Assembly: GCA_029378245.1 (NCBI GenBank)
Contig: JARKIF010000172.1
Location: 1-64,000 of the forward strand
Reading direction: 5' to 3'
From: Roridomyces roridus
Lineage: Eukaryota > Basidiomycota > Agaricomycetes > Agaricales > Mycenaceae
DNA length: 64,000 nt
Shown: positions 20,876-53,770 of the stretch, piece after piece
Numbering within the stretch: the stretch's first letter is position 1
Layout: the number at the start of each line of letters is the position of its first letter
Notes under the pieces: model-generated
Databases searched by the model: none
Seen by the model: the letters and a program-made list of their open reading frames with translations, nothing else
What the model was told of the DNA's origin: nothing
Program-made: the position numbers and the translations under genes

Positions 20876-20884
20876 GTATGGGAC

Positions 20885-25058: not shown

Positions 25059-25271
25059 AGCTGCATGCAAAATCGTAGGCCATCAGGAATCCGACAGCTG
25101 TGGAGCTCGGGAGAGCTCGGGTGGTGCCGCCACGAGCTGCCACGAGCTCCAACACTACTCGGAGCTGCACGGCACACCTGGCAAGCGGAATTAGAGTGGG
25201 TTTGGAGCAAGCCGGACATTCCAGCTCCACAGCTGTCGCGTTTGTGATGGCCTAGGATTTTGCATTTAGCT
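25059..25271. mobile_element. Small inverted-repeat element (about 213 bp)
   Basis: Inverted arms of about 50 bp: AGCTGCATGCAAAATCGTAG then GCCATCA and CGACAGCTGTGGAGCT, matched in reverse at 25225-25271. The centre carries repeated CACGAGCT. No clear target duplication. Confidence 0.55.
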
Positions 25272-26140
25272 GTCATTGAATTAGATCAGAGTCGATGTAT
25301 GTAGTTGCCTGCTTCTGCTGTGACGACCGTGCGACGGCGTCGGAGATGAAGATTCCGCAAACGACTCTGGCTCTGGTTCAAGCCGGCACCGTCAAGATTG
25401 ACTACGAACCACCCTTGGCTTGGACTTTGGCCGGCCTCATGGCGAGAACTTCACCTGGACCAGTTTTCATAATGCTTAGCATTCGATTCCTTAGCGCCGT
25501 TTATGCCCTATTACTCCCGCGCGGTCAAAAGCGTGAGTTTTGGGTCGTAAGATTAGAAACCCGGGCCATGCGGCGTCAATGTGAATTCAAGTATTATGCA
25601 AGCGCCACTTTCCAGTGCAATGTATACTTAACTCCGTCGCTTCTTTGAGAATATTCACTAGTTCCTTCGTCACACCAGATTCCGGTATCCTCGTTCCCTG
25701 AGCACCAGACTTGGCTCGTCTGTGCCTCGGACTTGCGAAGAAGCCACCCTGTATCATGCTGTAGCTCGGCCTCGAGTTGCGCCACCGCCACTAGCACGTC
25801 GTTTCCTTGCCAGATAGCTGTCAACCATGGGACTTCTTACCTCATTGTCAATATAGTCGAATTTGTGTTGAATCCTCAGGGAATGCTCGGGATGTTTTCA
25901 TATTAGCAGGCGAGAATACTCAGAAATTGAACACTGGTGCTCTCTTTCACTCCTCCAGACGGCCCAACAACAAGCCGAACACGGCGGAAATGAATCCGAA
26001 ATGGGAAGAGTTCTTCAGCACTGCGTGAGATCTGGGGCATGATTGATCGAGATGGCTGTCAAGCGCCACAGTGTGACGGGGGACTTGGAACTGAGTGTCG
26101 ACTACGTGGCAACCTCCGTTCCACTTTGCTTTCCACATCC
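25272..26140. other. Upstream region of the NLR gene, no gene seen
   Basis: Frames on both strands are short and lack splice support. An ATG at 26039 is in frame with the NLR start at 26141 and would add 34 residues. Confidence 0.4.
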
Positions 26141-31376: not shown

Positions 31377-31538
31377 ATTGTACAACCCTCCATCCTCTTC
31401 ATGACCATTGACTTACTATTTTTCAAGCCTTATCCCAGAATCTGGAACAATGGCCTTCTTGAAACGTGGAATCAACAGCCATCCACCACTCTTGAAGTAC
31501 CTCACTCAGTGTCCGGCAACACTACTCCCAAATATTGA
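31377..31538 (+). other. Possible alternative last exon of the NLR gene
   Basis: Directly after the last TTCCAG acceptor of the array a frame stays open for 53 codons (IVQPSILFMTIDLLFFKPYP...) to a TGA at 31536-31538. If exon 9 of the NLR were spliced at the GTGTGT donor at 28982 instead of running to the TAG, codon phase 0 would be kept through every 3-nt spacer into this segment. Whether it is used is unknown. Confidence 0.3.
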
Positions 31539-32219
31539 TGACATCGGTCATAGGTCCTGATAAGCGGGTGAGTGGGGATAGATTTTGCATGTACTTTGTA
31601 TGCAGCAAGGACTGAACAACTTCCTGGATCTCAGACCAACAAGTCAAGTTTCTTGGAGAGATGGGAATGTGGGCAATGTGCGGCTGAATACGGGATAACA
31701 CTTCGCTGAAAGCGACCTCTAAATTTGAAAGAGTCAGCGCAAAATGAGATATGAATGTACTTTGTTCAGCAAGAATGGTCTTGGTAGGACCGGACGCCAA
31801 TTGAGCAGTAAGCACAGCTCTTGGAGGTTATTTCTCGACAAGCTGGCCGGTTTTGATAGATGATCACATTGAGTATCTTCTCTGATGCAGTGGGGAATGC
31901 CACACCATACATGGACTACAGAACCGCTTAAATAGTGTCCAGGTCCCGAAGTCTCGGACAACTACGGGTGAAATAGAAATTACATTGGTCAGGTTCATGG
32001 GAAGGAATAGAGCTTCGCATAGTAGGCAAGCAAACCCATTATCGTTTTTCCGGAAAAAGACTGGTTAGTTAAGATCAATGTTGAGGTCTCGAGAGATGGC
32101 AGAACATGTAGCATGATTGATATGTTTGCTTTAGTCCACAAATATGAGGCCCTAGGTTATTCCGCCGCTCAAAACACTCTTCGTTGGCTACAAGGCATAC
32201 AAGGCCAATTTCATTAGGA
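31539..32219. other. No recognised gene; one minus-strand frame
   Basis: A minus-strand frame at 31815-31522 (97 codons; LSNLEVAFSEVLSRIQ, LTRLSGPMTDVI) looks protein-like, but I recognise no family and no upstream exons fit. Confidence 0.3.
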
Positions 32220-32683
32220 AATTTATGCCGCCACACCCGTCCCGTCCCGCCTCCCCGCTGCACCAACTCGGTGCACATGTATGCCGCTGTTGTGCCCTCT
32301 CACCGTGCGCCACCCGGCCCGGCCCGGCCCACCCCACGTCCCGTCCCGTCACCACGCCGCCGCTGCACCCACTTCCCACCTCTCCCGCCTTCCCATGCTT
32401 TGCCGGCCCCTCTGCCGAGCCCCCCCGTTGGCGCCAATCTGCTCACTCCCCAATGTCCTTCCCCATGCGTCACATACCCGCACCCACCTCGCCACTGCCC
32501 CATTACGCACGCCCGTCCCATCTCGTCGTGCACCCGTTCCACCCCACGTCCATACCGCTGCTGTTCCTCTCCTGCCCCCATACTGGCATCCATGTCCGTT
32601 AGGCAGGCTATCCTGCTCCAGGACTGTGCCACATCAGACCCACCGTCCCCACCTCATCACTGCGCCCTCTGCCCGCACCCGCC
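32220..32683. other. C-rich block
   Basis: About 460 bp strikingly rich in C on the plus strand (CCCGTCCCGCC, CACCC, CCGGCCCGGCCC runs), open in all three forward frames because stops are rare. Read as low-complexity sequence, not a gene. It ends at the element boundary at 32684. Confidence 0.4.
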
Positions 32684-33851
32684 CACCTAATAAGCCCGAG
32701 TAATGCTTCCAGCTGGTAGGGCGACATATAGTCGTGTCGCTGATAAGCAGTGTATTTTTACACGCAGGGAATTTACGAATTACCGTGTTTCCAGCTTACA
32801 AGCAAGTCCCGGGAACAGTGAGGCATAACATCAATGTTGAGGGTACATGTCCGCCTCGGGGCAGTGTATTAAACTCAAGGGCTTTGGGAATTAGTTGACG
32901 ACTGTGTACTACTGCCCGAGAGTAACCAAGAGGAGCAAAAGGGACCGCCCGTCCCACTTATCAACGAGAACCTCGAATTCGCACTCGCCGGGAGTCGAAC
33001 CCGCGGAGGTCAGGGAAATGACACACCTTGAATATCCAACCAACGAGACTTATCCGTACATGCCGGATGCCAGAGAAGGCGTGCCGAGAATAGGCTAGAC
33101 CTTACGAGAATGAGAAGTTCAACATGCCGTAAAATGCCGACTACCGGCGTCACCGGCATCAGAGCTAGAGGAATCACGATGAGTGATGGCAAGACTCGGA
33201 TGGGTCGGACACTCACCTAGAGAGTCCCGGCAGGCTGGTTGAAGTACCTGCGGCAGAACATAGTCAAGCCGCGTGGTCTAGGTCAGTCTGTGGGGAGAGA
33301 GATACTCCGATGGATCGTTCTGGAATCTCCGGCCGCACGTGAAGATCGACGGCTGACTGAGGCATCAAGCACGCAATCCTGACGAACTGATCAAAACGAG
33401 AAATGAGAACAACGCTATTGGCCAGACGAGACCTTGGCATCACAGATACCATATATATTCTTCAGTCCGTAAAATGTATAAAAGCCCTAGCAAAACACCA
33501 TGTAGAGTAGTAGATTTTACCCCTCCAAACTGTGAGACCAGTGCGGACAATCAAATTGCTCAGAACCAAACCCGCGAGAGCTAAAGCTGAGCCCCGGCTA
33601 GTTAAGCTTTGAGATCGAGTGAACCGAACGCGCAAGCCTTGAACCACCCGAGCGCCCCCCTTTTGTTGTGCCGAGGCTTTGACGGACGAGACGCCTGTCC
33701 TACTACCCCGAACACACACACACGAGAAGCATTAGATTAGTTGTGGTTAGATTTGATTAGTGGTTGAGTTGTGGTTGAGTTTCATCTCACTACATTCGAT
33801 TCTACTTTGAGTGTCTATCTCACGGCTGCACCCTAGTGCACCGTTTCATCG

Positions 33852-36800
33852 CCCTTCCAAGTGGAAGGGCTTCGGTTTATTTGGCATATGGCTGGAGAAA
33901 GTGCTGGAGAAAGCCGGAGAACTGCCAGAGATCTAAGTAGTAGGACTTGTACGTGCAAGTCCCCTGTATGGCTGGCCAAAGTCTGGACAAAGAAAAAAAA
34001 ATGTTACATCAGCGTACCTCCCGCCCTGATGGTGGGCCCGCCAAAACATCTACCCCAAACTGTGTGTATGATTTAGAAAAAAAGCAGTGGTGTAAATGAT
34101 TGAAGTGGCATTACAATTGGTACAACTGGTCAGTACTGAATGCCCCCCCAAACGACAAGCATGGTCACTTAGTCTAGTGGTTACCTTCTCCTTCAGTCAC
34201 TCCTCCATTTTTGCACTGGTCTCAAGTTCAAGTCCCACCCCATCTCCCTTTTTGCCATTTTATACAAACTCAAGCAGCCCATATCACTTCATGCACCCTA
34301 TTCACATTGGATGGGTTCAGAAAAATCCCTAGTTTTAGCTGTGGACCTACATATGTGGCTGATCAGACTCCTTTGATGTTGAGTCCTAATTGGGACCACT
34401 ACTCCAAGTGGCCCAAAATGGAAGTTTTGCCCAATGCACCCACTGCATGCAGCTCTGTACAGCAGGAAATGTCAGAAGGGACTCTATGGGTGTAATAATG
34501 TGTTTTGACAGCCTCAAATGCCCATAGGGAACCAATGGCAAACTGATACGTCAGTCTTTGTTGTGCAGAGGAAGTCCCTGTTATTCCATGACTCTTTGCT
34601 ATCCAGTTTTGCTGGAAAACGTTCTAACTTACTCATTGGTTGTCCCTGACCCTCTGAAATCCTTGTACCTGAAGTCTAGGCTACAATATGTGTGAGAGAC
34701 AGCAGGTTTGATTGGAGATCAATTTGTAGTTAGAGGCCCCTTCCCCTTGAGAGGATAATCTAAAAAGTGGATCTACAATTTGTTTGAGACTCCATAATCA
34801 TGAATGTGTGCAGTCCTGAGGTCAGTGTGATGCATGGATGTTGACATAAGTCAGTTTGACTCTGGCAGTGATAGAGTCCTATCCCTCAGGCTAGGAGTGT
34901 CCCTGGGTTGCCAGCTTGTATTATATTACTCACATATCCCTGAGGACCCATAATGCCATGGGAGATCACACTTTGAGTGGTGTAGACTCTTTGAACCAGG
35001 GAAATCAATTTTAGAGTGATCAGTGAATTATGGCTCAAGGGGTTGGTCAAATGGGCTGATGGAGGGCTTAAAAGAACTCTCCTAGGTCACAGCATTCAGA
35101 ATATATATAGCTTTGCATGGGTTGACTCTTGGGTTGTTGAGTTATCAACATTTGCACACTTTCATCATGAACACACCACTGCTCATAAATGCTACTCAGG
35201 TTGCTCTCGGGTTCAACCATTCCACATGCAATTCTGAGTCAATCTGGGATAATGAGGACATATTCTGGACCAGATTTTGAAGGGGAATCCATTTTTCATA
35301 TCCCCAGAACTGAAACTCTGGGGGATGTTGGAGTTAAACATTGCCTTGGTCTTCCAGGTAAGAGTAGCAACCTACCCCAGAGTCTTTTTATGGTGCCAAT
35401 ATACCTTGTGGATAAAGAGATCAAGGCCTGTGGTGTGATACTGGCCTCATACACCATCATCAGCTTGGAGATCATGGCCTCTGAAATGCCCTTAGTATCA
35501 CTCTCAGGCAAGAGATATTGTATCAATGGTGTGTTTATGCACCTCCCCTACCCATCTGAATTTAAGAAGGGCAACTGGGAAACCTATCTTGACATGTTAT
35601 TATGGTTTCAACAAAAATCAGCTTGTGTGGCTATTATAGGCAGGCTCAAGCCTCCCTCTGCACCCAATAGCATCCTATACCATGCCTAACATATCAAGGC
35701 AGATCCTGAGGGGTTTAAATGATACAGAAACACCCTTAGTGTACAAAGTATGAGTGAAAAACCGGAAAATTTCCTTTCTGGGACTTGGGAGTAGTGGCCA
35801 AGCTGGGATAAACACAGTGGAATGACACTGATGCTGGGTGTATATGGGTAGTGGGCACCAACCAGAAGTAGTCCATAGGAGAATGGATGTTCAAAGACCA
35901 GTTGGGGATGAATATTGGGCGGGATACAAAAAGGATTGCAGAGAGAGGGGCTTGCAGTGTCCACCCTAAGCCTTAAGGCCTTAGAGGTCTTAAGCCTTAA
36001 TAAGGCCTTAAGTTAAGCCTTAGCTTGGGCTGGTCCAGCAAGTTCAGGCCTTAAGCATCACGTGTCGAGCCTGATCCGGACCCGGCAGAGCTGATGATTG
36101 ATCGGACCGGGCGGAGTTTGTTTGCTGATGGCACAGAGGGAAGGCTATTTGCAGTGGAGATTTACCTTGGCCATGGGGATGTCTGGGGAAAGTAAATCAA
36201 GGGTGGACAGTGCATAGTGAAGGTTTTTCCATAGGCCTTCAGGGTACAAATGAATTTCCTTTTTTGGTCTTAAGGCCTCAGCCCCAGACCTTAGCTTAAG
36301 GCCTCAACCTTAAGTTAAGCCTTAACTTCCCGGAGGGTCGATATTTAAGGCCTTAAGGCGAACACTGGGGGCTTGATCTTGTGACCCTAAGCAAAAGACG
36401 AGAGGAGAGATAACAACTAGACTAAGAGGACATTAATGAATTCGGTCTGGGGTCCCACTGGAGGGGCAGGTAGGCTGTTCAGTTTGCTCACCCACTACTA
36501 ACTAGTCACTCTTGATGCAACCCTGCTCTAGTGCTGCATTTTGTACAGGTTGGAGACACTTTTGGGCACCAGTTTATTCCCAACTCTGATAGTTCTTGAC
36601 TTGCTCTACAACTTCGTTTTTGATGATGCCATCAATTATTGATGACCAGTGATCAACAGTACAACTTGGCCGGCAACAGTGGTAGCTCTCAATATCTTCC
36701 ACAATGAGCAACTTTGATGCGATCACTGATAATGATGGCATCTGATTAGCAGCCGAATGCTGTCTATCATTTTTTCTGATTTCTTTCTGATTTTTCCGGT

Positions 36801-38776: not shown

Positions 38777-39785
38777 GAGTTGTCGACAACACATCCGCGC
38801 AGGAACCCCAAACACCCTAGGAGGAGGACAACAGATGAAGATGACTCACGGCTCACGGTGATACGGCTGCGTATTTTGCACGCGTGAAATCTGGCTATTT
38901 AGCTGTTTTGGTGCGCACACCAATGCCTCTGTCAGGTGATATACAATAAGGGATAGGACTGAGCTCCGTGTCACTATTCGTGTATTAATGAGACAAGTAC
39001 AAGTCATCAGTACACTACGCTTGGCTATTCGTTCAAGTGGTCGGTTGTAGTGACTCCAATAGGCGGTTCGCGGGGACTACTACTTGTGGAGATACCATAC
39101 CCAAGGAGATATACCAAGCCCAGGTGTATTCAGGAATGAGCTAGACTAGCTACAGAGCAAAGACGAAGGTTGCGCGGACGCGCAGTACTATTATGACAAG
39201 GTTCGCGGAGTACCTCGCGGACCGGTATAAGTCTATCTATATGTATACAAACAGAGTGGCTCGTGTAGGCGAGTTGGAGGAAATACTACCATTCGTTCCG
39301 GTATTAAAGAGACACCCAGAAAAGAGATGACGAGTGGGCGAGTCGAACTCGCGCAGGCACACTAGTATGATCGAGAACTGATCCGAGTACGATCATGATC
39401 ATGGAAAGCGGCGGAGTCGCGGCAGACGATCAGAGCGATGATTGCGTCTGACAGAATATGCCAGGAGTAAGCCTTGAATGATGAAGATGGCGGACCGAGG
39501 TTATTTATGGACCTGGGTCGAGGGCTATAGTCATAATGAGTGCTGGCTCAGCAAGAGAGTGTAATGAAACGACGGAATCAAATTACCAGGCCAATCGGCT
39601 CGAATGCCAAGACGGCATGACCACCGATCAGACGGGCCAAGCAGCGACATAAGCAACAGGACCACGCGAAGCGGTTCGAGGGGATGTAATATAGGTGACA
39701 GGACACCTAGGGTTATAGGGAAAGTACGGAAATAGGGATGGCAGGCGCGTAATAGTAGTTATATCATCAGACCAGTAGGGAGTAG

Positions 39786-39792
39786 TATATAA
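39786..39792 (+). promoter_or_regulatory. TATA box of the 5' LTR
   Basis: TATATAAGG, with transcription expected about 30 bp downstream; the AATAAA signal lies about 290 bp further on. Confidence 0.5.
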
Positions 39793-40075
39793 GGCCTGTA
39801 GATCCCGCCCTTGCAGCATTGCATTGTACGCCTTCTTGCCTAGACATTGGGTCGAAGCTTGATCTGTGGTTATAGTGCAGTCTTGTGACTTCCGCGGAGA
39901 TTTGTTGTATCATTTCTCTTAGCTTAGATGCAATATCAAAGGCACCCGAGCTCTGGTTCAACTTGGGTCAGCTATAGTAACATACTTAAGGGGTAGTGGG
40001 TTGCCCTCTGTGCTATAGTTCCTCTTCGTGTTGTATCGAAGTTGTATTGGTGTTTGGATATTGTGTGTTTCGGTC

Positions 40076-40081
40076 AATAAA
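40076..40081 (+). terminator. Polyadenylation signal in the 5' LTR
   Basis: AATAAA followed by ATATAAAAAC; its position downstream of the TATA box fits the end of the R region. Confidence 0.45.
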
Positions 40082-40420
40082 ATATAAAAACCTTTTTAAC
40101 ATCGTAACCTCGTGTTCGTTGTGAGCAGTCTACAAACCAGTCAAGAGATTCCTCTTAGTTCAAAGACATTGAACTTGGTGTGAAACCTCGAGAGTCAACC
40201 TACAAGCTTCCGAGAACCAAACCGCGGAGTATCAGTCTTATCTGTATACTTCAGACGACCCCGAACTCAACCGTTAGGTGTCAGCGTGCTAGTCAAGGGA
40301 TTGTGTGTGTGTTGTGTGGTTAGTGTGTTGTGGAGTTGTATCGCTTCGCGGTCTACTTCTAGGACATTACCTACTCGAGCTGTCTACTATACACTAGTGC
40401 GCGTGACGCTGCGTATCATC

Positions 40421-40440
40421 TGGAGCCCACCGCGAGGGGT
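40421..40440 (+). promoter_or_regulatory. Primer-binding site
   Basis: TGGAGCCCACCGCGAGG starts 2 nt after the LTR end; it begins with TGG, the complement of a tRNA CCA end, as expected. The priming tRNA cannot be named from the window alone. Confidence 0.55.
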
Positions 40441-40933
40441 CAATTTTGATATTTCGCATCAATGAAGCTTAACAAAGTCGAATCTTGAGATTCCAACAAG
40501 TCTACTTGTTTAGATCCGAGAAGAAAACCGAAGCCGGTTTAACAAAGCAAATCATTTCGAGCATACCTTAGGCAAACTGTCTTTCGGAGTACCCTTTCAG
40601 AAACAGTCCGCCGCGCAGAAAAGCCTTGTACCCGAGGCATCTGCAACCCAGTCCCAGAACAAGATCACTAGGACTACCAAAAACTCTCAAGCAGCAGCCG
40701 CAGGCTCAGCTAGAGGAACCCCTTCGCAGCGAAACGCTACACCCGTGGTCAGAGGAAGAGCGGCAGCTTCAACCCGAGTCCAAGAACGAGTATCAGCCAA
40801 CGCTGCGGATCAACAAAAGAAAGTCGCTCAAAGAACGAGAAGTCTTTCAAACAGTGCAATTGAGCTTGTCGCGAATTCGAACCCGCAGCTTCAAACTCAA
40901 ACTCCGTTTAATCCAGTAAACAGACAAACAACC

Positions 40934-42457
40934 ATGTCGATGGATAAAACAAAATTTCCGTCACCTTTTGGTGGCAGAGCATTGCATTTCAAAGCAGATG
41001 AACCCCATATGTTGGGGTGGTATTTGGACAATGTCGAGGAGCTTTGCACGGCGTATCATGCAAAGACAGATGATGAAAAGAAATGGGTAGCGATCCGATA
41101 TGCAGCCCCAGAACTTCAGCGAGAATGGGTCAACTTGGAAAGATACAAGGATGGCACCTACGATGAGTTCGTGAAGGAGTTGTACATGAATTATCCCGAA
41201 GCCAAGAAGGCTGAAAAGGGATCTGTCATGCTACTAGACAAAGTAGTAAGGAAGCAAGCAGCGGATAAACTCCACTTGGGAGAAGTGACTGAATATATGT
41301 CGTTCTTCAGGAGCTTCCGTGGGCAAGCAACCAAACTAGGGAATGTAGTATCCAATCGCGAGTTGGTGTCCAAGATTCTACCGTGTCTGAGTGTGGACTT
41401 TGAGCAAGCGCTGAAGGCCAGGCTAAGGAACACGCCCATGGACCAACTACCCAGTATCAAAGCGGCTCTAGAAGGGCATGCGATTTTGGTGGAACGAGCA
41501 AAAGTGCAAGGAACTCCGCCACCGTTGACTCTAGAGTTGGACAGACCCGCGGAGGACAGATACCTCTGGACGGATGTATTAAAAATCGGTCAGGACTTGA
41601 CCGAGGAAGAGTCGACCACGTTCTATGGCATCAGCAGTGGCTTTAGACCGTCGCGTCAGGACAAAGAAAAGGACAAACGCACCCAGAACCAATTCCTAGG
41701 GGGACTCTATGACCCCGCGGAAGAAGGAGCAGGGTCGGCGACTCAGGGCGCGGATGGAAGTCTGCGCACCGAGATGTTTGAAAAATTCCACGAGTTGGAA
41801 AAAGTCATGGCAGAAGCCGCCGACAAGCAGAATGTCGAAGAGCATAAGCGCCATGTGGAGACCGCGGAGCTACTCAAGGGAATTGCCTCGGCTTTACAGC
41901 AGAGCACCCCGCAGCAGCCCCCACCCAGGCAAAACTGGGGACCGCCTCAGCAACAACAGAGGCAGTCACAAGGCAATTATGGTGGACAATCTTACGGGGC
42001 CGCCAGGGACGATAGGTGCTTCTATTGTCTTGGACCACATTACCAAGAAGACTGCGAGATTAAACGCAAGCATTTGCTATTGGGAATGATTAGAGTTCAG
42101 GATAGGCAGATATTCCAGTACAACGGTCATAGTATTCCGTCAGAACCAAGGAACAAATCCAAAGCCCAGAAGGTCGAGGAGTTCTACATGAGTCGGAATG
42201 GGGGGAAGATGCCCCAGGAACCTCTGAAGCAAACATACATGACAGAAGAGGAGCCGGACTATGATTCGCGTGGGGATGAAATCCTTACCTTACAAGTCGA
42301 AGCTCTGCAGTTGCGTCAAATGATCCAATTATACGAGATTCGACATGGATCGTTGAAGGATACCGGAGCTGGCGAGGAAGAGCCAGTACCAGAAGCGTCA
42401 CAGAACTTGCAAACCAGGGCCGCAGCTGGGCAAGCTAATGGTCAGGGTTTTCGGTAA
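40934..42457 (+). CDS. gag: Gag of the gypsy element
   Basis: Open frame with an ATG in good context at 40934; the frame is open back to about 40745, where only a GTG could start, so an N-terminal extension is possible. A capsid-like helical region (FKADEPHMLGWYLDNVEELC, EWVNLERYKDGTYDEFVKEL) is followed by a Gln-rich linker and a zinc knuckle CFYCLGPHYQEDC, C-x2-C-x3-H-x4-C, one residue shorter before His than the retroviral CCHC consensus. It would package the element RNA. Intact in this copy. Confidence 0.8.
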   Translation: MSMDKTKFPSPFGGRALHFKADEPHMLGWYLDNVEELCTAYHAKTDDEKKWVAIRYAAPELQREWVNLERYKDGTYDEFVKELYMNYPEAKKAEKGSVMLLDKVVRKQAADKLHLGEVTEYMSFFRSFRGQATKLGNVVSNRELVSKILPCLSVDFEQALKARLRNTPMDQLPSIKAALEGHAILVERAKVQGTPPPLTLELDRPAEDRYLWTDVLKIGQDLTEEESTTFYGISSGFRPSRQDKEKDKRTQNQFLGGLYDPAEEGAGSATQGADGSLRTEMFEKFHELEKVMAEAADKQNVEEHKRHVETAELLKGIASALQQSTPQQPPPRQNWGPPQQQQRQSQGNYGGQSYGAARDDRCFYCLGPHYQEDCEIKRKHLLLGMIRVQDRQIFQYNGHSIPSEPRNKSKAQKVEEFYMSRNGGKMPQEPLKQTYMTEEEPDYDSRGDEILTLQVEALQLRQMIQLYEIRHGSLKDTGAGEEEPVPEASQNLQTRAAAGQANGQGFR

Positions 42458-42579
42458 GTCCGAGGAAGGATCTGCCGCGTGGCCCTCCGGGTAGACGCGA
42501 CGTTCCCGAGGACGCCCAGAAACCGAAAAAGACGCCGGCCAAGAAGAAGATTGAGAAAATAGAAAAACCTAAAAAGATA

Positions 42580-43803
42580 GTGATGGATGCAGTAGTGGTG
42601 CCTTCTCGGAAGAGAGATCCGAAGCCCACAGTTGAAGAGGTAGAGGATGAGGATGATCCTCCACCGACAGGTCCCAGAGCAGAAGAGTTGCCCTATCGGA
42701 ATGTACCACCGGTAGTGGATGCCAAGAGAGAGCCAGCCCTTCCGCGAAAACCGAATCCCCAGAAGACTGAGATACCAAAGGCTACCTCCAATGACACGGA
42801 GCGAGCGTACAAGGTAACCTCGGAAGTTGATGATGGAGCAGCGGTCAAAGCATTGAAGAAAAGGATCTTAGATATGGAAATTCCAGTGACGATCCGGCAT
42901 CTAATGGCAGCCAGCAACCCTCTGCAGAAGGAAATGAATAAGGTCACGGCCAAACGTCGGCGACCTATCTTCCAAGCCCTCCAAGGCTCTGAGTCGTCCA
43001 ACTTTGTAGTAAGAGTGGTAGACAAGGAAACGGGAGAGGTGGTGGTGGAAAGCGAGTTGGACACCGGGGAATCTCAGAGCGAGACAGGGTCCGAGACCCA
43101 GTCCGAGGAGTCGTCCGCGGAGGTCCAGGCTGAGTCAGGAGATCAGATTCCGGAAGGGGCGGTGCACATTGACGATTTACCATTCGATCAGTATGTATTC
43201 GTAACCACGGAAGCAAGTGGGGCTGTACCAGAAGGGTCCATCGTAATTGAGGATGCTTTTGTACAGTATCACGATAGCTTAGGCTCGGGGAAATCAGGAA
43301 AGGATATCTACGTTGGCACGTCCTCCGCAGCGTTGCGAAGTCTGTATCCGCTGATTAATGGCATTGGAACTGTCGAAACACTACTAGATGGTGGTTCGCA
43401 GATATGTTCGATAACCGAGGCAGAGGCCATTCATTTTGGGCTCGCATGGGATACTTCCGCGACCGTGTTGATGCAAGGATCCACGGGCAAGGTTGAGAGA
43501 ACGATGGGGCTAGCGCGAAATGTAGCCTTCACGTTCCCAGGTATCACTGTGTTCCTACAGATCCATGTGCTCAGGACGGCGCCCTACAAAGCGCTCCTGG
43601 GTAGACCTTTCGAAATCGTTACCAGTGCTGTGATTCAAAACAAACCGGATGGTACTCAGACAATAACCATGACAGATCCGGTGACGCAACGTACGATGAC
43701 CATTCCTACCAGCGAACGTGGCAAACAGCGCGTAGTTGGCAAGGCAGAAAAAGAGCACCCAGTATTATCAGCCGATAGCGAGTCGCCTAAAAGAAATTTT
43801 TAA
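42580..43803 (+). CDS. DUF4100-like linker and retropepsin domain
   Basis: 407 codons in a frame separate from gag. The N-terminal half is acidic and Pro-rich and then resembles the linker (DUF4100-like) region of basidiomycete gypsy polyproteins. The protease domain is near the C-terminus: LLDGGSQICSI holds the catalytic Asp but reads D-G-G instead of the usual D-S/T-G, and the flap/ALLG block appears as YKALLGRPFEI. It would cleave the polyprotein. The frame ends at a TAA directly before the next pol segment, which is in another frame. Confidence 0.7.
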   Translation: MMDAVVVPSRKRDPKPTVEEVEDEDDPPPTGPRAEELPYRNVPPVVDAKREPALPRKPNPQKTEIPKATSNDTERAYKVTSEVDDGAAVKALKKRILDMEIPVTIRHLMAASNPLQKEMNKVTAKRRRPIFQALQGSESSNFVVRVVDKETGEVVVESELDTGESQSETGSETQSEESSAEVQAESGDQIPEGAVHIDDLPFDQYVFVTTEASGAVPEGSIVIEDAFVQYHDSLGSGKSGKDIYVGTSSAALRSLYPLINGIGTVETLLDGGSQICSITEAEAIHFGLAWDTSATVLMQGSTGKVERTMGLARNVAFTFPGITVFLQIHVLRTAPYKALLGRPFEIVTSAVIQNKPDGTQTITMTDPVTQRTMTIPTSERGKQRVVGKAEKEHPVLSADSESPKRNF

Positions 43804-43805
43804 GT

Positions 43806-46800
43806 TTGTTCGAGGAACTCGAGGATGGGGGAGAACTCATGACTTCTTGGGATTACGATGAGCGTGGACAACTGATATGTACGGGGTATGCAAAACCCAA
43901 GGACAAAGTTGCTACGGAAGAGGATATCACACAAGCGTATCTATGTGCCTCGAGACAGGTAGTGGACGATGACGAAGCAGCAGCTGAGCTGTTGGATCAG
44001 TATCTAGGTCTTAGTAAGACTGAGGAAGGGATGGAAGTGTTTACTTTCAAAGAAGCAGGCGAGACTGGCGTAGCCCAGAACGCAACCGTGAGAAGCGTCG
44101 GATCAGATGCGGGAAGAATACCCGAAAGATGACGCTGATGCAACTCCGCGGGGAAACTGAGCGATCAGCGCCAAAGTCAATTAGAAAGATGTTTCGCAAG
44201 AAAGTACCTACCATACCCGAGATATTGAGGGATTGTACAGAGGAGGTAGCTAACTTCCTCGGAAAGAAGTACAAGAAAGTCGCAGACAAGGTCACGCCGA
44301 TACTGGCCACCTTGCCCGAGAAATATCGGATCGAGAGGAAGATCACGGGTGACCCCTTGCAGGACATGCCAACTCTAAACCCGAATCCCCCTGAATTTGA
44401 GGCAGTGGGAAGGTATACTGAGGAGCGCCGTGATATGGTTGACGCAATACAATGATGGACTCTTGGAACCTGAGGAGCACAAGTTGATGCACCATTTTAT
44501 GATGCAACATGAGAAGAGCTTCGCCTGGGAAGAAAATGAGAGAGGGAGATTGAAACACGAGTTCTTTCCTCCCGTGGAAATTCCAGTTGCAGAACATACC
44601 CTGTGGGTGTGTTCGCAGATTCCGATTCCGCCTGGTCATTATGAAGAAATTTGCAAGAACATCAAGGCGAAGATTGATGCAGGTGTATACGAGCCTTCGA
44701 ACTCTTCGTATCGCACTCCGATCTTTGCGGTAATCAAGAAAGATGGCAAGTCACTACGGATTGTGCACTCCTTGGAGAGGTTGAACGAAGTTACCATCCA
44801 GCATTCCGGAGTCACACCAGGTACAGAGGCCATCGCAGAGCAATTTGCAGGACGCGCTTGCGGAGGAGCATTAGACATGTTCGTAGGATATGACAATCGA
44901 GACCTCGCAGAAGGTTCGAGGGACTATACAACGTTTCAGACTCCCTTTGGAGCCATGAGATTAGTGAAGCTACCCATGGGCTGGACCAATTCGGTTCCCA
45001 TTTTCCATGATGATGTTACCTATATTCTCAGAGATGAAGTACCTCATGTCACCATCCCCTACATTGATGATGTACCTATCCGCGGACCTAAGACTCGGTA
45101 CGAGACTAAGGACGGAGACTATGAGCGCATAGCCGAAAACAAAGGCATCAGACGATTCGTGTGGGAACACTTTCAAAATTTGAACAGGGTTGTTGCTAGA
45201 ATGATCTATGCTGGAGGAACGTTTTCAGGAAAGAAAGCAGTACTTTGCAAAGGCACATTTGAAGTTGTTGGTCATATGTGTACTTATGAGGGCAGGATCG
45301 CGGATCCTAAACGGATTGATGTCATCATGAAATGGGGAAAATTGGCGAACTTTACACAAGTCAAGTCATACCTCGGAACAGTTGGCGTCCTCCGGTCCTA
45401 CATAAAAGACTTTGCGAAAATCCTAGGTCCAATAAATGACCTAACGAAGAAGGAAATACCTTTTGAATGGGGTGAAGCCCACGATAAGGCACAAGCAGAT
45501 GTTCGAGAAGCGCTCAAAGACTGTAAGGCACTCAAGCCTCTGGATTATGAGCTGGATTCGGACATAGTATTACAAGTGGACACGTCTTGGAGGGCTGTGG
45601 GGTTAATTATCTACCAGGTAGACCCCGAGGACCCGACCAAGAGGTGGTACGCGAGGTTCGCGTCAATCACACTAACAGAAAGAGAAGCCAATTACTCGCA
45701 ACCAAAGCGCGAATTGTTCGGGCTCATGAGGGCTCTGGATGCAATGTCGTACTGGTTGTTGGGATGTAGGCGGCTGGTGGTTGAGACAGATGCCTTGTAC
45801 ATCCGTGGAATGTTGAAGAATCCTGGAATGGGGCCAAATGCGACTATTAACCGGTGGATCGAGAAGATTCTCATGTTCCATTTTAAGTTAAAACACGTAC
45901 CTGGTGCGACTTTCGCGCCGGATGGTCTGTCAAGAAGGGATCCGCACCCCGGGGACGAAGTCTTTAAGAATCCAGAGGATGGTTTCGATGACAATGATCC
46001 ACCCGAGGACCATGAGGAGATTGATCCAAATGGGCCGCAACCGCTGGAATTCGAGGAATTTAAAGACAAGATAGACACAAGGGGCGGCTATTTACAGACA
46101 ACTGAGTGCGCGGAGAGCCCCGCGGACTTCGAGACTGCCTGGGCTTGGGCCAGGTCTTTGGAGGAGCAAGTCAGGACTTCTGTGAAAAGAGTGTATGAGA
46201 AAGAAGGGGAACCTGTACCACAGTTTGTGCAGGCCGCGGAACCACTAATTCCAGACTTGGAGTTGAAATGGGATCCGGACAAGCGGGAGCCGTATGACGA
46301 GAGTCGGCGCTCTAACTTGGCTAAGATGCAGGATAACAGACTGGCCGGTTTAAGGACTTGGCTGGAAAATCCACTGAAAAGGCCAAAGAGTGTTCAGAAG
46401 AAAGATTACAGACACTTCGTTCGGTGACATTTCTTTTTGAAAGAGGGGAGGATGTATCGAAAAGGAATCAGTACAGCACACCAATTGGTGGTAGATAAAG
46501 AGCACAGGATGTACATGATGCGTGCAGCACACGATAGTCTAGGACATCGAGGATTTTGGGCAACCAAAGAATTGATCAGCCTACGATTCTGGTGGCCGGA
46601 GTTGGATAGGGATGTCAGTTGGTATATTAAAACGTGCCATAGCTGTCAAGTACGGCAAACGACACTCTTGAAAATCCCGCCTGTCATCACGCACACACCG
46701 AGTCTGTGTCAGCAAGTTCACATTAACGTGATGAAAATGGGAGCAACGTCGAATGGATATTCAATGGTTGTAGATGCCCGCGATTCACTATCGAGTTGGT

Positions 46801-47882
46801 TGGAAGCACGACCAATTAAGAACGAAAATGCTGAAACGCTTGGGATGTTCATTCTGGAGGATATTATCTGCAGATGGGGCTGTCCGCGGGTTATCGTAAC
46901 AGATAATGCGGGCGCGTTCAGAAAGGCTTTAGCGTGGTTGGAAAAGAAATATGGCATTATTGGAATCAATATATCGCCTTACAACTCGCAAGGTAACGGC
47001 AAGATCGAGCAGGGGCACTTCCCGCTTCGACAGTCGCTAACCAAAGCTACGGGTGGAAACCCGGGGAAGTGGTTCTACTTCTTCCATCAGGTGTTGTGGG
47101 CAGACAGGATTACCATTAGGAAAGGCAAGGGGTGTTCTCCCTTCTTCCTAGTCACCGGAGCGCATCCAATCCTACCTTTGGATTTGGAGGAAGCGACCTG
47201 GTTGGTAGAACTGCCTGGCAGGGTTTTGACCAACTCAGAATTAGTGGGATTCCGGGCACAGGCCTTGGCCAAGCATCATCAGCATTTCGAAGCCATGAGG
47301 TCGCGCGTCACCCGCGAGAAAAGGATGGCATTACGGAAGTACGAGAGGTACTTCGAGAACACCATCCAACAGTACGATTTCCAACCAGGAGAATTGGTGC
47401 TGGTCAGACATACCAGTGTAGAAAAGAGTTTGAATTCAAAGATGGAGAACCAATACCTAGGACCTATGATAGTGGTTCGACGAACCAAAGGAGGAGCGTA
47501 CTTGGTCGCGGAAATGAACGGTGCAATGTTTCAAGACAAAATTGGAGCGTTTCGGGTTATCCCTTATTTTGCACGACAATCCATTCCGTTACCAGAGAAC
47601 ATCCATAGGGTCATCGACATCTCGAAGGAAACTCTGGAGAAGCTAGCAAACGACGAGGAATCTGTGGAGCCGAAAACGAAGAAATCTAAGGTGTACCAAG
47701 GAAAGGACATTCAATTCAAGGATGTTCGCCTGCGGGTAACTTCAGAAGACTTTGAGGAGCCAGAGACTGAAGACAAAGAGCAGTCCGAGGACTCCTCCGC
47801 GGAAGATTCGAACGATGATGCAGCAGACAGGATTCGCAAGTCCAAACGTTTATCGAAATTGGTAGACAAACTACGGACATGA
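43806..47882 (+). pseudogene. pol: RT, RNase H and integrase of the gypsy element (broken)
   Basis: Segments 43806-44132, 44129-44455, 44397-46427 and 46437-47882 lie in three frames, so at least two frameshifts interrupt the N-terminal part; a TGA at 46425-46427, probably from CGA, separates RNase H from integrase. Readable domains: RT with LPMGWTNSVPIF and YIDD in PYIDDVPIRG; RNase H from LQVDTSW to the DALYIRGML block; an HHCC integrase finger (HDSLGHRGF...CHSC); core with VTDNAGAF and NGKIEQGH. The first catalytic Asp of the integrase core appears as Asn in HINVMKM. The C-terminal tail is Lys/Glu-rich. Not functional. Confidence 0.85.
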
Positions 47883-47907
47883 ACGGCGAAGCTATAAAAA
47901 GCGTACT

Positions 47908-48566
47908 CTAAGGCGTACGAACAGGGCGCGCAGTCGCGGTGAAAGTCAAGGTACCGGACTGGCGAATAGCAAAGAGGGCGTTGAGGCTGTCAGGGTGGCC
48001 GCGCTCAATAAGAACCCTGAGGGCGAGGTGCTCGACGTCCGGGTGGAAGTAAGGGTCGTTTTCGTGTTGCATAAGCCAAGTGAGGATCGCAGAGATCGAC
48101 ATGCGCTCGAAGGTGGACTTGATCTCACGACGAGTACGGTTGTGATATGACTCGCGGAGGATCTCGAACGCGCGAGGCACGAAGGGAAGGAGCTGCGAGT
48201 ACGGCACGGGCTTGCAATGAAAAGGAACCGCTGAAGAAAGTGGTGAATGAGTAAAAGCATTGAGGGAGGTGAAAGTAGACGCACCCTGCTCGTCGCAAAT
48301 TGGGCTCCGGCGGAACGACAGGAACTCGTTCATCTCCGTAAACTCGCAAGGGCAGAAGCGATAGGTGCACTGACGGCAAGCACGCCCCCAGGACACGAAG
48401 ATACAAGGCAGGCGCAACTCTTGGCAAGGACTGCATATGGTTCCTCCGGGAGGCTAAGGAAAGGCAGTTTAGGCGAAGTGTTGGGATCAGGGCTAAGATG
48501 GGAACATACCCGGAGGTCCTCCAGCATTTGGATGGTCTGAACTTCGCGAAGGTTGCGACGAGGCAT
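47908..48566 (-). CDS. Antisense gene 2: 182-aa protein with six-cysteine (Zn2Cys6-like) cluster
   Basis: Three exons: 48566-48510, 48453-48285, 48230-47908; introns of 56 and 54 nt with GTATGT and GTGCGT donors and frame kept throughout. A TATAAAAG box lies at 48618-48611, about 45 bp upstream of the ATG. Residues 26-55 contain CSPC, C36, C45-R-Q-C48 and C55, spaced C-x2-C-x6-C-x8-C-x2-C-x6-C, as in fungal Zn2Cys6 binuclear clusters; an extra Cys is at 53. Residues 85-165 (LLPFVPRAFEILRESYHN, LTWLMQ, LALRVLIERGHPDSL) form a helical domain shared with antisense gene 3. It ends 25 bp from the pol stop, tail to tail. DNA binding is inferred from spacing only; intact in this copy. Confidence 0.7.
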
Positions 48567-48610
48567 GTCGCTGGGAAAGTAGACAGAGAAATCGGTCAGT
48601 TCGAGGGGGT

Positions 48611-48618
48611 CTTTTATA
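48611..48618 (-). promoter_or_regulatory. TATA box of antisense gene 2
   Basis: TATAAAAG on the minus strand about 45-52 bp upstream of the proposed start codon. Confidence 0.5.
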
Positions 48619-48729
48619 GCAAATAGAGACCTCGCGGAAGTGATCGAGGGTGATACAGCGATCGGAAACTGAAGATTTTCGAGGACCAAGATAGCAGCAG
48701 CCGCATGTTTTTAGAAAGGGCAATTACGT

Positions 48730-49206
48730 CTACTCCATTACATGAAGGCTACTATTTTGGGTTGCGGCTCGGCTGAGTACAATCCGAGCCTGGATAATCT
48801 GCATGGTGTCATGGACCGTCTCGGGATAGCATAATTCCGTCAGACGACACAGCGCCAAGTCCAGGAAAGCTTGGGGCGGAGGTCCGGCACCGTAAATAGC
48901 GACAGTCCAGTCGATCAGAAGATCGAGGCTCAGTTCGCGGAGGTTACGATCCAGCATATACAACGGCCAGAGATAGTATTGAGTATGGAGGATCGCAAAA
49001 ACCTCGGGAACATGAGGGAAAAGGAAAGCGGTTGGCACTGAATCAAGGAGCGCAGGCTCTAGAAAAACGTTGGGTGCAATCCGAAGAGTACGGAAAACAA
49101 GTAGCGCACCCGGAAGTTGGTATCCGTTCATGACAGGAATAATATGACAAGTTCGCGGGGCACGCCCGAGGACGGTCGTGTTATTTTGTGAGGGGGAGAG
49201 AGCCAA
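48730..49206 (-). CDS. Antisense gene 3: 158-aa protein related to the C-terminal domain of antisense gene 2
   Basis: Single open exon. LFPHVPEVFAILHTQYY, LRELSLDLLIDW, LALCRLTELCYPETV align by eye with LLPFVPRAFEILRESYHN, MSISAILTWLM and LALRVLIERGHPDSL of the neighbouring gene, which suggests a tandem duplication that lost, or never had, the cysteine cluster. No TATA box seen. Function unknown. Confidence 0.6.
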   Translation of the reverse strand: MALSPSQNNTTVLGRAPRTCHIIPVMNGYQLPGALLVFRTLRIAPNVFLEPALLDSVPTAFLFPHVPEVFAILHTQYYLWPLYMLDRNLRELSLDLLIDWTVAIYGAGPPPQAFLDLALCRLTELCYPETVHDTMQIIQARIVLSRAATQNSSLHVME

Positions 49207-49887
49207 GATGGCGCCAAGCTTTTCAAGAGATAAGTTTCAGACTTGCAAATAGACCACCGACAAATCACTATGGCGTTAGACAAAGCAATTTGCAAATATG
49301 TTACATGCGGGCACCGATCGGCAGAACTATAGTTAGAAGCTGAGTTCGAGGAAACGTGCGCGGGTGAGCAGATAAGAGTTGGCCAAGGATTATTCGAGTT
49401 TAGAATAAGGAATGGTCAATAAGAACCCGTGTGGGGTTCGAGGATGATGAGGGATCAAGAAGTTGTGATCCGAGAAGCGGTCCTAGAAGCAGTTTGAGAA
49501 GTGGTCAAAGCCATGATACAAGGTCGCATGACAAGGGTATCAGACTACGAATGTACTAGGACTAGAAAAGACTCAATGCACATTACAGTAGACAACGCTT
49601 ACTTGAAAGAAAAGAACAAGAATATTTGTATTATCTTAAGAGTGGAAGTTCGTTCGTCATACTATAAAGGCGTGAGTCAAAAGCAATGATATTTGAGGCC
49701 ACGATTAGGCCGACTACTAGATGTACAAGGGGAGAGCACTCTACTACTTCTACTCTAAGTAGGTAGAGACGACGTATGTGACGTCGGTTGTAGTCCGCGG
49801 GGTGAAAAAACAAGTATACAAAACGCGATTGGCCGTTTTGGCTCGCAGCAAGATGCCCGCATCCCAAACCCATCCAGCAGATTCCAC
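49207..49887. other. Spacer between antisense genes 3 and 1
   Basis: About 680 bp without coding support. Contains one CCGCGG site at 49795. It may hold the promoter of antisense gene 3. Confidence 0.4.
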
Positions 49888-52663
49888 CTAATCCGTCGGT
49901 TCAGCAGCCGTGAGATGAGGAGCAGGCGAGGAGTTGGGCGAGCCCATCAGCTCGTCCTCCGGCGCGTGATCCGTCATCGGCGTGTCGGGAGCGTTGAGAG
50001 TTGCGATGGCAGGCGTCGACGGAGAAGTCAGCCGAGACTCGTCCAAGGCTAGACCCGAATATCAGACCAACACAGAAAAAGAATAAGAAAGAAAAATAGA
50101 CGTACCACCACCCAGAGTACTAAAACGCGAGATCGGCGTTGGAGGGTGAGATGGATGCGCTGAAGACGAAGCCGCAGGGGCCATTGGGGGAGCCGTCTCC
50201 ACGGGTGCCGGGCGCAAGAAAACGGGCGCAGAGTTGAGGCGCAATAATCCGCTGGTCGACGCTTGAGCAGGGACGAGAGGCAAAGCGATCAACTACAAGG
50301 CATAGAATCAGGAAGGAAAGAATAAAGGAACGCTGTGACGTACGCGGGTAGGCTCCATGTGCGCAAAAGCGAACTGGTGACGGTCCTCGAGGTCCTCCAC
50401 GAAAGCAGTCGCCGAATCCATGTCGATGTTGTGGAAACGGAAGAGCGAGAGGAGCACGTCGAGGTCGTCGCGACCGTTCTGGAACTTCTTGAAGAGCTCG
50501 GCCTTGGGAAGGGACTTGCGGAGCGAGAAGATGTACAGCGCCAACTCCTGCAACTGCATCCGATAGAAGGAGCGCTGGTTGAGGAAGACGGCGAGCGACG
50601 ACTCGAGGTTGTGGCGTGCGAAAGCCAAACCTTCCAAGCGATGGATCAAGCTTACGAAAAGAAGTTAGGAATAAAAAGAAGTGCGGAAAGAGAAAAGATG
50701 CACTGAAGTTAGACATCTCGATGGCAGGCCGAAGGGACTCGAACATTGCGCTCTGTTCGTATTCGTCAATAGAGTTCGAGCAAGTCCCGTGGCCGACGCC
50801 ACAGCCAAGGCACGCGTGTTTCGGTCCCAAAGACCCACAGACGTGGTTGCGCTTGGCACAGTTCGAGCACGGAGCAGGCGCCTAGCACAAAACAGGTTGA
50901 GCTAGGGCCGCACCAGAAAAGAAAAACAAAGAAATGACCACTCACTTGGAAGTAGTTCTTGCCCGGGATGTGCGAGGCGATGATCAGAGCCGGATCGAGG
51001 GTCGGATCGTCGGGCAAATCCGTGTCCTTGAACAAAGATGGGGCGGGGGCAGGAATCGAATCCTGGTCGATTGAGTATTGAGGATTGCTGAAGTAATCGA
51101 CGACGTCCATGGTCTCGGGGATGGGCGTGGCTTTGACAATGAAGTCGTGCGGGATGACGCGAGGAATAACGCCGGGCATTGAACGCCCTAGTTTCAAACG
51201 TCAGGACGTCGGAAAACAAAACAAAAAGAAAAGAACATACGGAGACTCTGGGTTTTCGAATGCATCGAGTTGGCGTACCACTCGTGGGTTTGAAGACCGT
51301 CCGGAGGGTTGGTCGGGACCTCGGGCTTGGGGTCGTCGAGGATGTAGCTTTTATAGCCACCGTCGGGGTTGGAAGCGTAAGGATGCAGAAACAGGCGTTT
51401 CTGGTCAGGGGCCTCGGACGGTTCGCTCTTTTGTTTGCGTTTGCGCGAGGTTTTCGGAACCTCGGCAGGAGGAGCGTCGGGAGGTGGTGATTCGGCGGGA
51501 CGAGCAGCCACGGTCGACGAGCGCAGCGAACGACGAGTAGGGGGTGCCGGCGACTCAGCACGAGTTTTGGGCGGAAGGCCTTTAAGGATTAGTGCCTCGT
51601 CCTGAAAAACGCTTTAGCATAAAAGAAAAGAAAAGAGAATTCGAGAGACACACCTCGGAAGGGATCTCCTCGGACTCGACATTACCCAAAGAAGGACCAG
51701 GAGTAACGTCGTTCGAACGACGACGACCCTTGGCCTTGGAGTTCTTGTTTCCCTTCTTCTTGGGTGGAGCTTGGAAGAACGGGGCGGTTGCCGATTTGGG
51801 GTGAGTAAAGAGGCTGACGGAAGGAGCGGTTTTGCTTTTGGGCTTGGTGGACGAATAGCCGAAAGGCGAAGGCGAAAGCTCCAGCTGGTCCTCGGGCATC
51901 TGAAGAGAATTCAAAAAGAGAGCAAAGAAAAATGGACGAGAATGGACGTACGCGGTCGTCCTCGTTAAGATACAAGTTAGGGGTCGTGAGCCGCGGCGCG
52001 GGAGCCTTGGAAGAAGACTTCGCGGGCGTGGGAGCGAGGGCCTTGGCAGCAGACTTCGATGGCGGAGGGACGGGAGCGGCGTCGGAAACCTCATCGTCGT
52101 CATCGTCCATGGCCATAGCGAAGCGATCGTCCAGCAACAACGGCGCCGGAGGTGCAGGAGGCGCCGGGATGTCGAACGAAGGGGGAAGGACGGGCTGTAA
52201 AAAGCATCAATAAAAACAAGTGAAAGGAGAGGCGTATTGAAACGCACGCGAGAAGGATCCGCGGAAGGAATCATGGGTCGATAAGCGGCCGTGCCCTTCA
52301 AGTTCTTGTTGCCAAGACCAGAAACGTCGTTGAGACGGGCGAGCACGTCGAAGCATTGAGAAAAGAAAGCCTCGATTTCGGGGATGACTTCCCCTTGCGC
52401 GTGGTCACGATAGCGCTTCTGAAAAAGAAGAGTTAGATGTTTCAAAGGAACAAAAGAACAAGACGTACCAGGAATTGAAAGTAGTGCTGGGTCTCTCGGA
52501 CGAGCACGGGCAAAGTCACCGGTTCCAGCGGACGAGTGACGTCGAAACGCTCGGTGAAGAAGACGAAAGCACGGGCACCACCGTCGCGGATGGGTTTCCA
52601 AGGATCCGCAAGGAAACGCGCCTTGGCCGAGGCAGGATTGAGAGGTCTGGGCTTTGGAGCCAT
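49888..52663 (-). CDS. Antisense gene 1: 756-aa protein, ten exons, with Zn2Cys6-like cluster
   Basis: Exons (minus): 52663-52469, 52418-52248, 52194-51952, 51899-51654, 51601-51241, 51187-50946, 50881-50704, 50630-50344, 50292-50106, 50048-49888. Nine introns of 50-73 nt, mostly GTACGT/GTGCGT donors and pyrimidine-rich 3' ends; the frame is open throughout. The seventh intron's acceptor (GGAAG at 50631) is the least certain. Residues 1-65 start MAPKPRPLNPASAKARFLAD; a Pro/Ala-rich, acidic linker and two basic stretches (KKKGNKNSKAKGRRR, SRKRKQK) follow. Residues 491-520 hold CSNC, C501, CLGC (510-513), C520, with spacing C-x2-C-x6-C-x8-C-x2-C-x6-C, identical to antisense gene 2. A helical region and a Pro/Thr-rich tail follow. 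Probably a nuclear DNA-binding protein; this is inference. Not recognised as a named family. Confidence 0.7.
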
Positions 52664-53371
52664 GAGTCGGTACGGGCTTGGTGGGACCGCCACGTAGTCG
52701 AGAACGAGAGGAGGCGTGGTGGAGACGCGAGTGGAAGACGAGTAACCAGGAGAGCCCGCCAGGCGAATGCGGGAAGACGACAAGCAGAGTAGAGGAAAAG
52801 AAAACGAGAAGGGCGAAAGTCTTGATGAGTCGGCTCTTAAAAAGGGGCTCATGGAAGGAGATTCCTGGGAAAAGATCAGAAATAGACTTGCCATAGAAAT
52901 GACTCGAGGCCAGGACCCTGAGTGGAAAAGAAGCCAAGACGACCGGGCGTCCGGTACGGCGCTAAAATTGAATGGCTGGGAAAAACAAGTAAAGATAGCA
53001 CGAACCTCGAGGATGGTCTCGCTGGTTCGTGGGCAGTCTACCAGCACAATACAAGCACGGAACGAATAAGATAGTGCAGAAGACGCGTGTCTTCAATAGT
53101 TGGAGCGAAAAATCGCGAGAGGGGCGCGTGAGACTCCGGTGAAATAAAAATTAGCGGAAAATCCAGCACAGCCTTTCAATTAAAGGTGGATCAAAGATCC
53201 GCGGAAGCTACCTCGTGGAGCACGGGAGCTATTGGTGAATGAACGAAGACAATTTGGGCTCAAAATAAAAACAATTGAAACAGGCGTTCGAGGGGGCTAT
53301 CAGTCCTCGAACCTCTAAATCGACGAATTATGATCGCGCATGTTCACGACCGGGGACGGTCGAGATTTAGT
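52664..53371. other. Upstream region of antisense gene 1
   Basis: About 700 bp between the start of antisense gene 1 and the polypurine tract. The frame stays open upstream of the chosen ATG, so a longer N-terminus is possible. One CCGCGG at 53199. Confidence 0.4.
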
Positions 53372-53381
53372 GAAGGGGAGA
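53372..53381 (+). promoter_or_regulatory. Polypurine tract
   Basis: GAAGGGGAGA directly precedes the TGATACG start of the 3' LTR, as expected for the plus-strand primer. Confidence 0.75.
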
Positions 53382-53770
53382 TGATACGACTGCGTATTTC
53401 GCACGCGTGAAATCTGGCTATTTAGCTGTTTTGGTGCGCACACCAATGCCTCTGTCAGGTGATATACAATAAGGGATAGGACTGAGCTCCGTGTCACTAT
53501 TCGTGTATTAATGAGACAAGTACAAGTCGTCAGTACACTACGCTTGGCTATTCGTTCAAGTGGTCGGTTGTAGTGAATCCAATAGGCGGTTCGCGGGGAC
53601 TACTACTTGTGGAGATACCATACCCAAGGAGATATACCAAGCCCAGGTGTATTCAGGAATGAGCTAGACTAGCTACAGAGCAAAGACGAAGGTTGCGCGG
53701 ACGCGCAGTACTATTATGACAAGGTTCGCGGAGTACCTCGCGGACCGGTATAAGTCTATCTATATGTATA
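53382..53770 (+). repeat. 3' LTR, truncated to 389 bp
   Basis: Nearly identical to 38859-39247, then the match stops at ATGTATA. The missing 1.17 kb would include the TATA box, AATAAA and the CGTATCA end. The sequence that follows (CTGTTCAAAGTTCCTTAA) also occurs near 10520, so another repeat or a rearrangement cut the LTR. Confidence 0.85.

Follow-up and report, generated by a model that had tools for sequence, protein, structure and literature searches.

The first 64,000 bases of a 66,109-base contig from the 90.8-Mb genome of the basidiomycete Roridomyces roridus (the window) contain a 14.9-kb Ty3/gypsy element at 38859–53770 that carries, on the strand opposite to gag-pol, a set of genes with the structure of spliced genes, several of them for proteins with six-cysteine clusters. 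In its fullest copies the genes follow the antisense order A, D, C, B between the integrase and the polypurine tract. They are coding and under purifying selection about equal to that of the integrase. We put at roughly even the chance that this is a Ty3/gypsy lineage whose antisense, spliced cluster-gene module acts most likely on the element's own DNA. The first-pass annotation of the window described three antisense genes, two of them encoding a pair of DNA-binding proteins. The clusters of A and B are as described, but the third gene is a remnant of C, made chimeric at a deletion junction, and there is more than a pair: the fullest copies encode three cluster proteins (A, B and C) in addition to the fourth gene, D.

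The ratio of non-synonymous to synonymous substitutions (dN/dS), pooled over pairs of copies that are not independent (the near-identical pairs window/L009 and L013/L014 are included), is 0.16 for A (nine copies), 0.22 for B (six), 0.14 for C (four) and 0.12 for D (four), as compared with 0.17 for the integrase (eight); pairwise values for A lie between 0.06 and 0.21 (six copies). The constraint comparable with pol that is looked for in LTR elements with antisense extra genes (aORF-3R) is thus present. The calculation leaves out A of the broken copies L010, L012, L016 and L017; B of L016 (shortened) and of L012, which the script's pattern did not catch; C of L010, where there is a frameshift; D of L010, L012 and L020, where there are stops, and of copies with only part of D, together with the last exon of D; and, out of ten close copies, the integrases of L025 and L030. 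Values of this kind are what one would predict for proteins that matter during the active life of a copy. They also bear on a different reading, in which antisense transcripts or proteins repress the element and control its copy number, via double-stranded RNA or repressors of the long terminal repeat (LTR). Antisense RNA of this region would be complementary to the genomic RNA, and such a role is discussed for plant antisense open reading frames (ORFs). Repression by RNA pairing alone needs no constraint on proteins, yet A–D are all constrained; repressor proteins would still be compatible with the data. Overall, self-repression or copy control appears unlikely.

The cysteines of B (C26, C29, C36, C45, C48 and C55) and of A (C491, C494, C501, C510, C513 and C520) share the spacing C-x2-C-x6-C-x8-C-x2-C-x6-C, which confirms the residues first reported for the two clusters (26–55 and 491–520); the reported ends, 52663 for the start of A and 47908 for the stop of B, are exact. 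B has two introns. Complete C has 185 amino acids with its own six-cysteine cluster and is preceded by D. B and C are paralogues (E = 3e-16), with a first exon of 57 bases in both and equal intron phases; A is weakly similar to C (E = 0.019) and has a phase-0 intron immediately upstream of its cluster. Most exons of the models made here are the same in the NCBI gene models P0001, P0003, P0004 and P0005. A match of C to a DNase in the PDB (E 0.062) was taken as chance.

In the window the ORF at 48730–49236 is a chimera across the deletion junction at 49116–49120. At this junction, six of the 12 other fetched copies have approximately 1.86–2.06 kb of extra DNA (about 2.05 kb in L010, L012, L016, L017 and L019; 1.86 kb in L015, where a separate gap is present), and the extra DNA codes for D and the first half of C, giving a third six-cysteine cluster in those six copies. 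L020 retains 1.4 kb of it, L011, L013, L014 and L018 retain part, and L009 has the deletion of the window plus a 770-base insert. The copies are partly non-independent, as L009 shares the deletion with the window, L010 and L012 share their 3′ flank and L013 and L014 share deletions; the latter two pairs may represent alleles of a heterozygous genome, assembled as separate contigs. Deletions between genes also produce fusions that are annotated as hypothetical proteins, C–B in L019 (P0001) and D–B on the contig of L018 (P0002).

The introns of A are approximately 50–64 bases each. In an alignment of A from 13 loci, mean identity is 92–98% for exons and 84–94% for introns; GT is conserved at every intron, and AG is conserved everywhere but in the window and its sister copy, L009, where intron 7 has AA at the aligned place. 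Length differences in the introns are mostly not multiples of three; the exons have such gaps too, which is no surprise with broken copies in the alignment. A is open through the joined exons in nine of the 13 copies (L010, L012, L016 and L017 are broken), counting the window and L009 with the intron-7 edge of the other copies and L013 and L014 minus exon 1. All nine introns proposed earlier could be placed by sequence, as GT-AG introns in the window, except that the window copy has a changed acceptor at intron 7. Consequently, the proposed 756-residue product would depend on a non-standard splice; the model has 763 amino acids if the edge of the other copies is taken.

TATA-like boxes are located upstream of C and D, as well as the TATA box 52 nt before the ATG of B, and in L045 a cluster gene has a TATA box approximately 53 bases ahead of its ATG. 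None is found in the 715 bases before the start of A, so that the earlier suggestion of a TATA-driven unit fits B, C and D but not A. A promoter and terminator scan with bacterial consensus sequences gave results at chance level and was not used. We infer that internal RNA polymerase II promoters at the boxes before B, C and D would give separate antisense mRNAs. The genomic RNA, driven by the LTR, would retain the introns through reverse transcription because they are located on the antisense strand relative to it. A, B and C, with a probable Zn2Cys6-type domain, would then most likely act in the nucleus on the element's DNA, and would raise its transcription or shield it from silencing.

Genome searches with B (36 matches), P0005 (18) and P0004 (19) resolve into at least 16 loci, only the best candidates having been scored. 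Fifteen of these lie within a gypsy element or next to one, and the sixteenth is cut off by the end of its contig; 11 of the 16 belong to the family of the window. An integrase is located nearby on the opposite strand at C458, C469 and C201:760k, a reverse transcriptase is upstream on the opposite strand at C201:413k, and at C257 the contig ends before pol would be reached. A gave one partial match, at C438. Homologues found mainly as stand-alone host genes would have spoken against an element-borne module; no stand-alone homologue was found among the 16 loci, one of which is cut by the contig end. The result bears on the reading of the module as host cargo, captured by chance and passively carried. 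Retained introns are as expected for captured genomic DNA, and gene capture by LTR elements is known. However, selection is about as strong as on the integrase, the module is present in diverged families on the same strand, and none of the 16 loci is shown to be free-standing. Given the dN/dS values and the occurrence in diverged families, passive cargo is very improbable.

An integrase search of the genome gave 90 matches, and the DNA downstream of the integrase was read in seven further families (L041–L047). Their integrases are 46–66% identical to that of the window (C469 65%, C458 63%, C35 59%, C2 59% and C90 56%; by the integrase search, C223 53% and C461 46%). C458 and C469 are 81% identical to each other and C35 and C2 80%, so the seven families represent about five lineages. 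Clusters are found downstream of the integrase in six of the seven (three in C458, four in C469 and one each in C35, C2, C90 and C223), and all 11 are antisense. The downstream DNA of C461 has no cluster even with the loose pattern. This pattern allows a second gap as short as 3 and was introduced only once the match between L042 and L044 was known; the stricter pattern finds nine clusters in four of the seven families. The 1.5 kb adjoining the integrase in L031–L040 contains no cluster, and the clusters found sit further out. In the modules of C458 and C469 (L041 and L045), three small cluster genes and the gene adjoining the integrase match in antisense frames. This last gene (MSxAEFE..., L041 ~7170–7600, L045 ~6360–6600) is a further antisense gene in a position unlike that of D. 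L049, a distantly related gypsy element whose integrase has 27% identity, has no cluster in 6 kb, 2.6 kb of which follow the pol frame. In the sense of aORF-3R, recurrence is seen in gene A at 13 loci and in the clusters of six of seven other families. In the reading to which we give a roughly even chance, the module would be old enough to be common to diverged Ty3/gypsy families. A nested foreign transposon was rejected as an explanation: there are no inverted repeats of ≥40 bases at 36000–58000, and the genes keep the same strand in six other families. Protein searches (with B, residues 420–680 of A and an alignment of eight proteins) returned only R. roridus proteins and one other protein, P0007; they require shared five-residue words and can miss fast-evolving relatives. 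Two stretches of P0007 match the third small gene of L041, with 64% and 43% identity, and by this similarity the cluster protein family seems to exist outside R. roridus.

The Zn2Cys6 domain has the spacing C-x2-C-x6-C-x(5-12)-C-x2-C-x(6-8)-C, with basic residues typically between Cys2 and Cys3 and a proline before Cys4. A, B and C of the window family satisfy the spacing and the other families mostly do; the second gap is x7 in L043 and x4 in C35/C2 (L042 and L044). A relaxed cluster pattern gives 0.0135 matches per 10 kb of shuffled DNA and no match in the 48 kb of the window outside the element. In Pfam, B and C have no match at E ≤ 1 and do not reach the Zn_clus gathering score; at E ≤ 10, three of eight aligned proteins match Zn_clus (best E 0.19; one scores 10 bits against a cut-off of 21), and the cluster proteins have no other Pfam domain. 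A profile search of the PDB gave 12 matches up to E = 10, all zinc-cluster regulators by name. For an AlphaFold model of the cluster exon of B (pLDDT, the predicted confidence score, 72.9), all 13 PDB entries listed are zinc-cluster DNA-binding proteins; the first prediction, of whole P0005, was poor (pLDDT 47) and was not used. The clusters thus lean to the fungal Zn2Cys6 domain by profile and predicted fold, below the Pfam cut-off. They resemble the fungal regulators Gal4, Put3, Leu3, Hap1, Ppr1 and Pho7 in cysteine spacing, best profile matches and predicted fold, and differ from them in their low scores, in having no further Pfam domain, in being encoded by a retrotransposon and, in the small proteins, in a tryptophan between Cys3 and Cys4.

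Alternatively, the spacing could be shared by a zinc or redox motif that folds differently, such as an RNA-binding one. A has both the basic residues between Cys2 and Cys3 and the proline, but B and C lack the proline and have a single basic residue; the paucity of family-typical basic residues in these two, the x4 spacing of the C35/C2 variant and the tryptophan, invariant in the eight small proteins aligned, would fit another fold. However, every profile match and every structural neighbour listed is a zinc-cluster DNA-binding protein, and we consider a different fold rather improbable. The variant C-x2-C-x4-C with tryptophan between Cys3 and Cys4 occurs at L042 5922 and L044 5260 (antisense-forward orientation), in two related families.

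Repeated motifs were compared with shuffled sequence as candidate target sites. The most outstanding 7-mer of the window element is CCGCGGA, present 21 times against 2.0 expected (reached by 0 of 40 shuffles). Six of its sites form the palindrome TCCGCGGA and are counted twice, leaving 15 distinct sites (38859–53381), and all six TCCGCGGA sites of the window are inside the element. The C90 family (L039 and L043) has CGGATAC 16 times (1.1 expected, 0/40) and C2 has CCGAGCC 12 times (1.2 expected, 0/40), 11 of them bunched at L044 6049–6600. C458 has CCGGGA 32 times (6.9 expected), but one shuffle in 40 attains the count of its best 7-mer. The best motif is reached by 14 of 40 shuffles in C469, 1 in C35 and 3 in C223, the latter two without a CGG-type motif. 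Controls pass as well: L047, which has no cluster (GTCGAGA, 12 against 1.9, 0/40), and flanking DNA (AAGGAAG, of low complexity, 12 against 1.3, 0/40). We therefore regard the repeated motifs as no evidence for the target of the proteins. The distant, cluster-free L049 has AACCCGA 19 times against 1.2 expected, a count made with no shuffle comparison. Family-specific dispersed 7-mers with a CGG core, at approximately 11–16 times expectation and in both orientations, are present in some LTR element families of this genome, one element without clusters among them.

Among possible roles, self-activation or anti-silencing is the likeliest, a little short of an even chance. The cluster proteins could instead be cofactors of the integrase or the pre-integration complex that choose insertion sites. 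Their genes lie downstream of the integrase with an equal level of constraint, and DNA-binding domains serve targeting in other elements; but products of antisense genes with promoters of their own would not normally be packaged along with Gag-Pol, and each element has several different cluster genes. An integrase or targeting role is quite improbable. Action on host genes has a similarly small chance, and a role of some other kind only a slightly better one.

The element has the order of a Ty3/gypsy LTR retrotransposon (LTR, gag, protease, reverse transcriptase, RNase H, integrase, LTR), with a primer-binding site assigned by position and a polypurine tract (Table 1). A stop codon separates the reverse transcriptase–RNase H and integrase ORFs in the window copy; six of ten close copies have a single reverse transcriptase–integrase frame of 1363–1366 amino acids, one with an internal stop. 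In the flanking DNA (window 1–15000 and 20000–35000), the heptamers GGTTTAA and CACGCAC are strongly over-represented, perhaps as tandem or minisatellite repeats.

Table 1. Features of the Ty3/gypsy element and its antisense genes in the window
Feature	Position	Strand	Remarks
5′ LTR (TGATACG...CGTATCA)	38859..40418	+	same ~1.56 kb is the 3′ LTR of several other copies
Probable primer-binding site (starts TGGAGCCCACC)	40421..40437	+	placed by position right after the LTR, not by tRNA match
gag ORF, knuckle-like C-x2-C-x3-H-x4-C	40514..42457	+	ORF list; motif by eye
DUF4100/aspartic protease ORF	42439..43803	+	Pfam: DUF4100 above cut-off, protease below
Reverse transcriptase–RNase H ORF	44379..46427	+	ORF list, Pfam
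Integrase ORF	46428..47882	+	Pfam Integrase_H2C2
Antisense gene B, 3 exons, 182 amino acids	47908..48566	-	
Six-cysteine cluster of B, residues 26–55, exon 2	48346..48435	-	
TATA box (TATAAAA), 52 nt before ATG of B	48612..48618	-	
Remnant of antisense gene C	48730..49116	-	cluster half gone in window copy
Deletion junction, 5-base overlap	49116..49120	.	~2 kb (D and 5′ half of C) gone
Antisense gene A, 10 exons/9 introns	49888..52663	-	intron 7 acceptor altered in window copy
Six-cysteine cluster of A, residues 491–520, exon 7	50780..50869	-	
Polypurine tract (AGTGAAGGGGAGA)	53369..53381	+	
Truncated 3′ LTR, 389 bases	53382..53770	+	385/389 positions identical to 5′ LTR

Descriptions of antisense genes in LTR elements go back to the 1990s, but none of these genes is known to have a demonstrated function. 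The plant elements Retand, Grande and RIRE2 have antisense ORFs between pol and the 3′ LTR (PMC11963269; PMC7264820). The R. roridus genes are alike in antisense position, presence in most copies and conservation like that of other element genes; Grande has its own promoter, and DNA binding or a nuclear role has been proposed for the plant proteins. The plant proteins have TRP28 or SMC domains, whereas the R. roridus set, in a basidiomycete, has four genes with short introns and several zinc-cluster paralogues; TRP28 (PF04195), as in Retand, has no Pfam match at E ≤ 1 in A, B, C or D. In fungi, Boty/BcGypsy1 of Botrytis cinerea carries the antisense gene brtn (Zhao et al. 2011, as cited in PMC8365987 and PMC7264820). 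It is alike in being a fungal gypsy element with an extra antisense gene and differs in having one gene, by the cited title; the two are set apart by description, not by sequence. Such an arrangement in basidiomycetes, or with zinc clusters, was not found in the open-licence literature at the level of titles and starts of abstracts. The first-pass annotation knew of no such arrangement, a view to be moderated, since plants have antisense genes conserved in the stretch from pol to the 3′ LTR and the fungal element Boty has brtn; the multi-gene, spliced zinc-cluster set is a new form of the antisense extra genes of LTR elements.

VANDAL elements are DNA transposons, unlike the Ty3/gypsy element here. 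Their VANC proteins in Arabidopsis are reported to be anti-silencing factors that act on their own element (PMC5735166, PMC10398659). Both systems would thus comprise element-encoded DNA-binding proteins acting on the element, an action reported for VANDAL and only proposed for R. roridus. By this analogy we tentatively suggest, as a possibility somewhat short of an even chance and weaker than the role itself, that the diversified antisense Zn2Cys6 factors activate their own element or prevent its silencing, as a fungal, multi-protein counterpart of VANC in which factor and target would co-evolve in each family.

Self-regulation by these elements is directly testable because the proteins resemble a well-understood DNA-binding domain, duplicated and diversified, beside DNA on which they could plausibly act. 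Because the introns lie on the antisense strand, the element is also an example of how spliced genes can persist despite replication through an RNA intermediate. If the reading is true, the module would also provide a way in which zinc-cluster genes could pass between elements and hosts.

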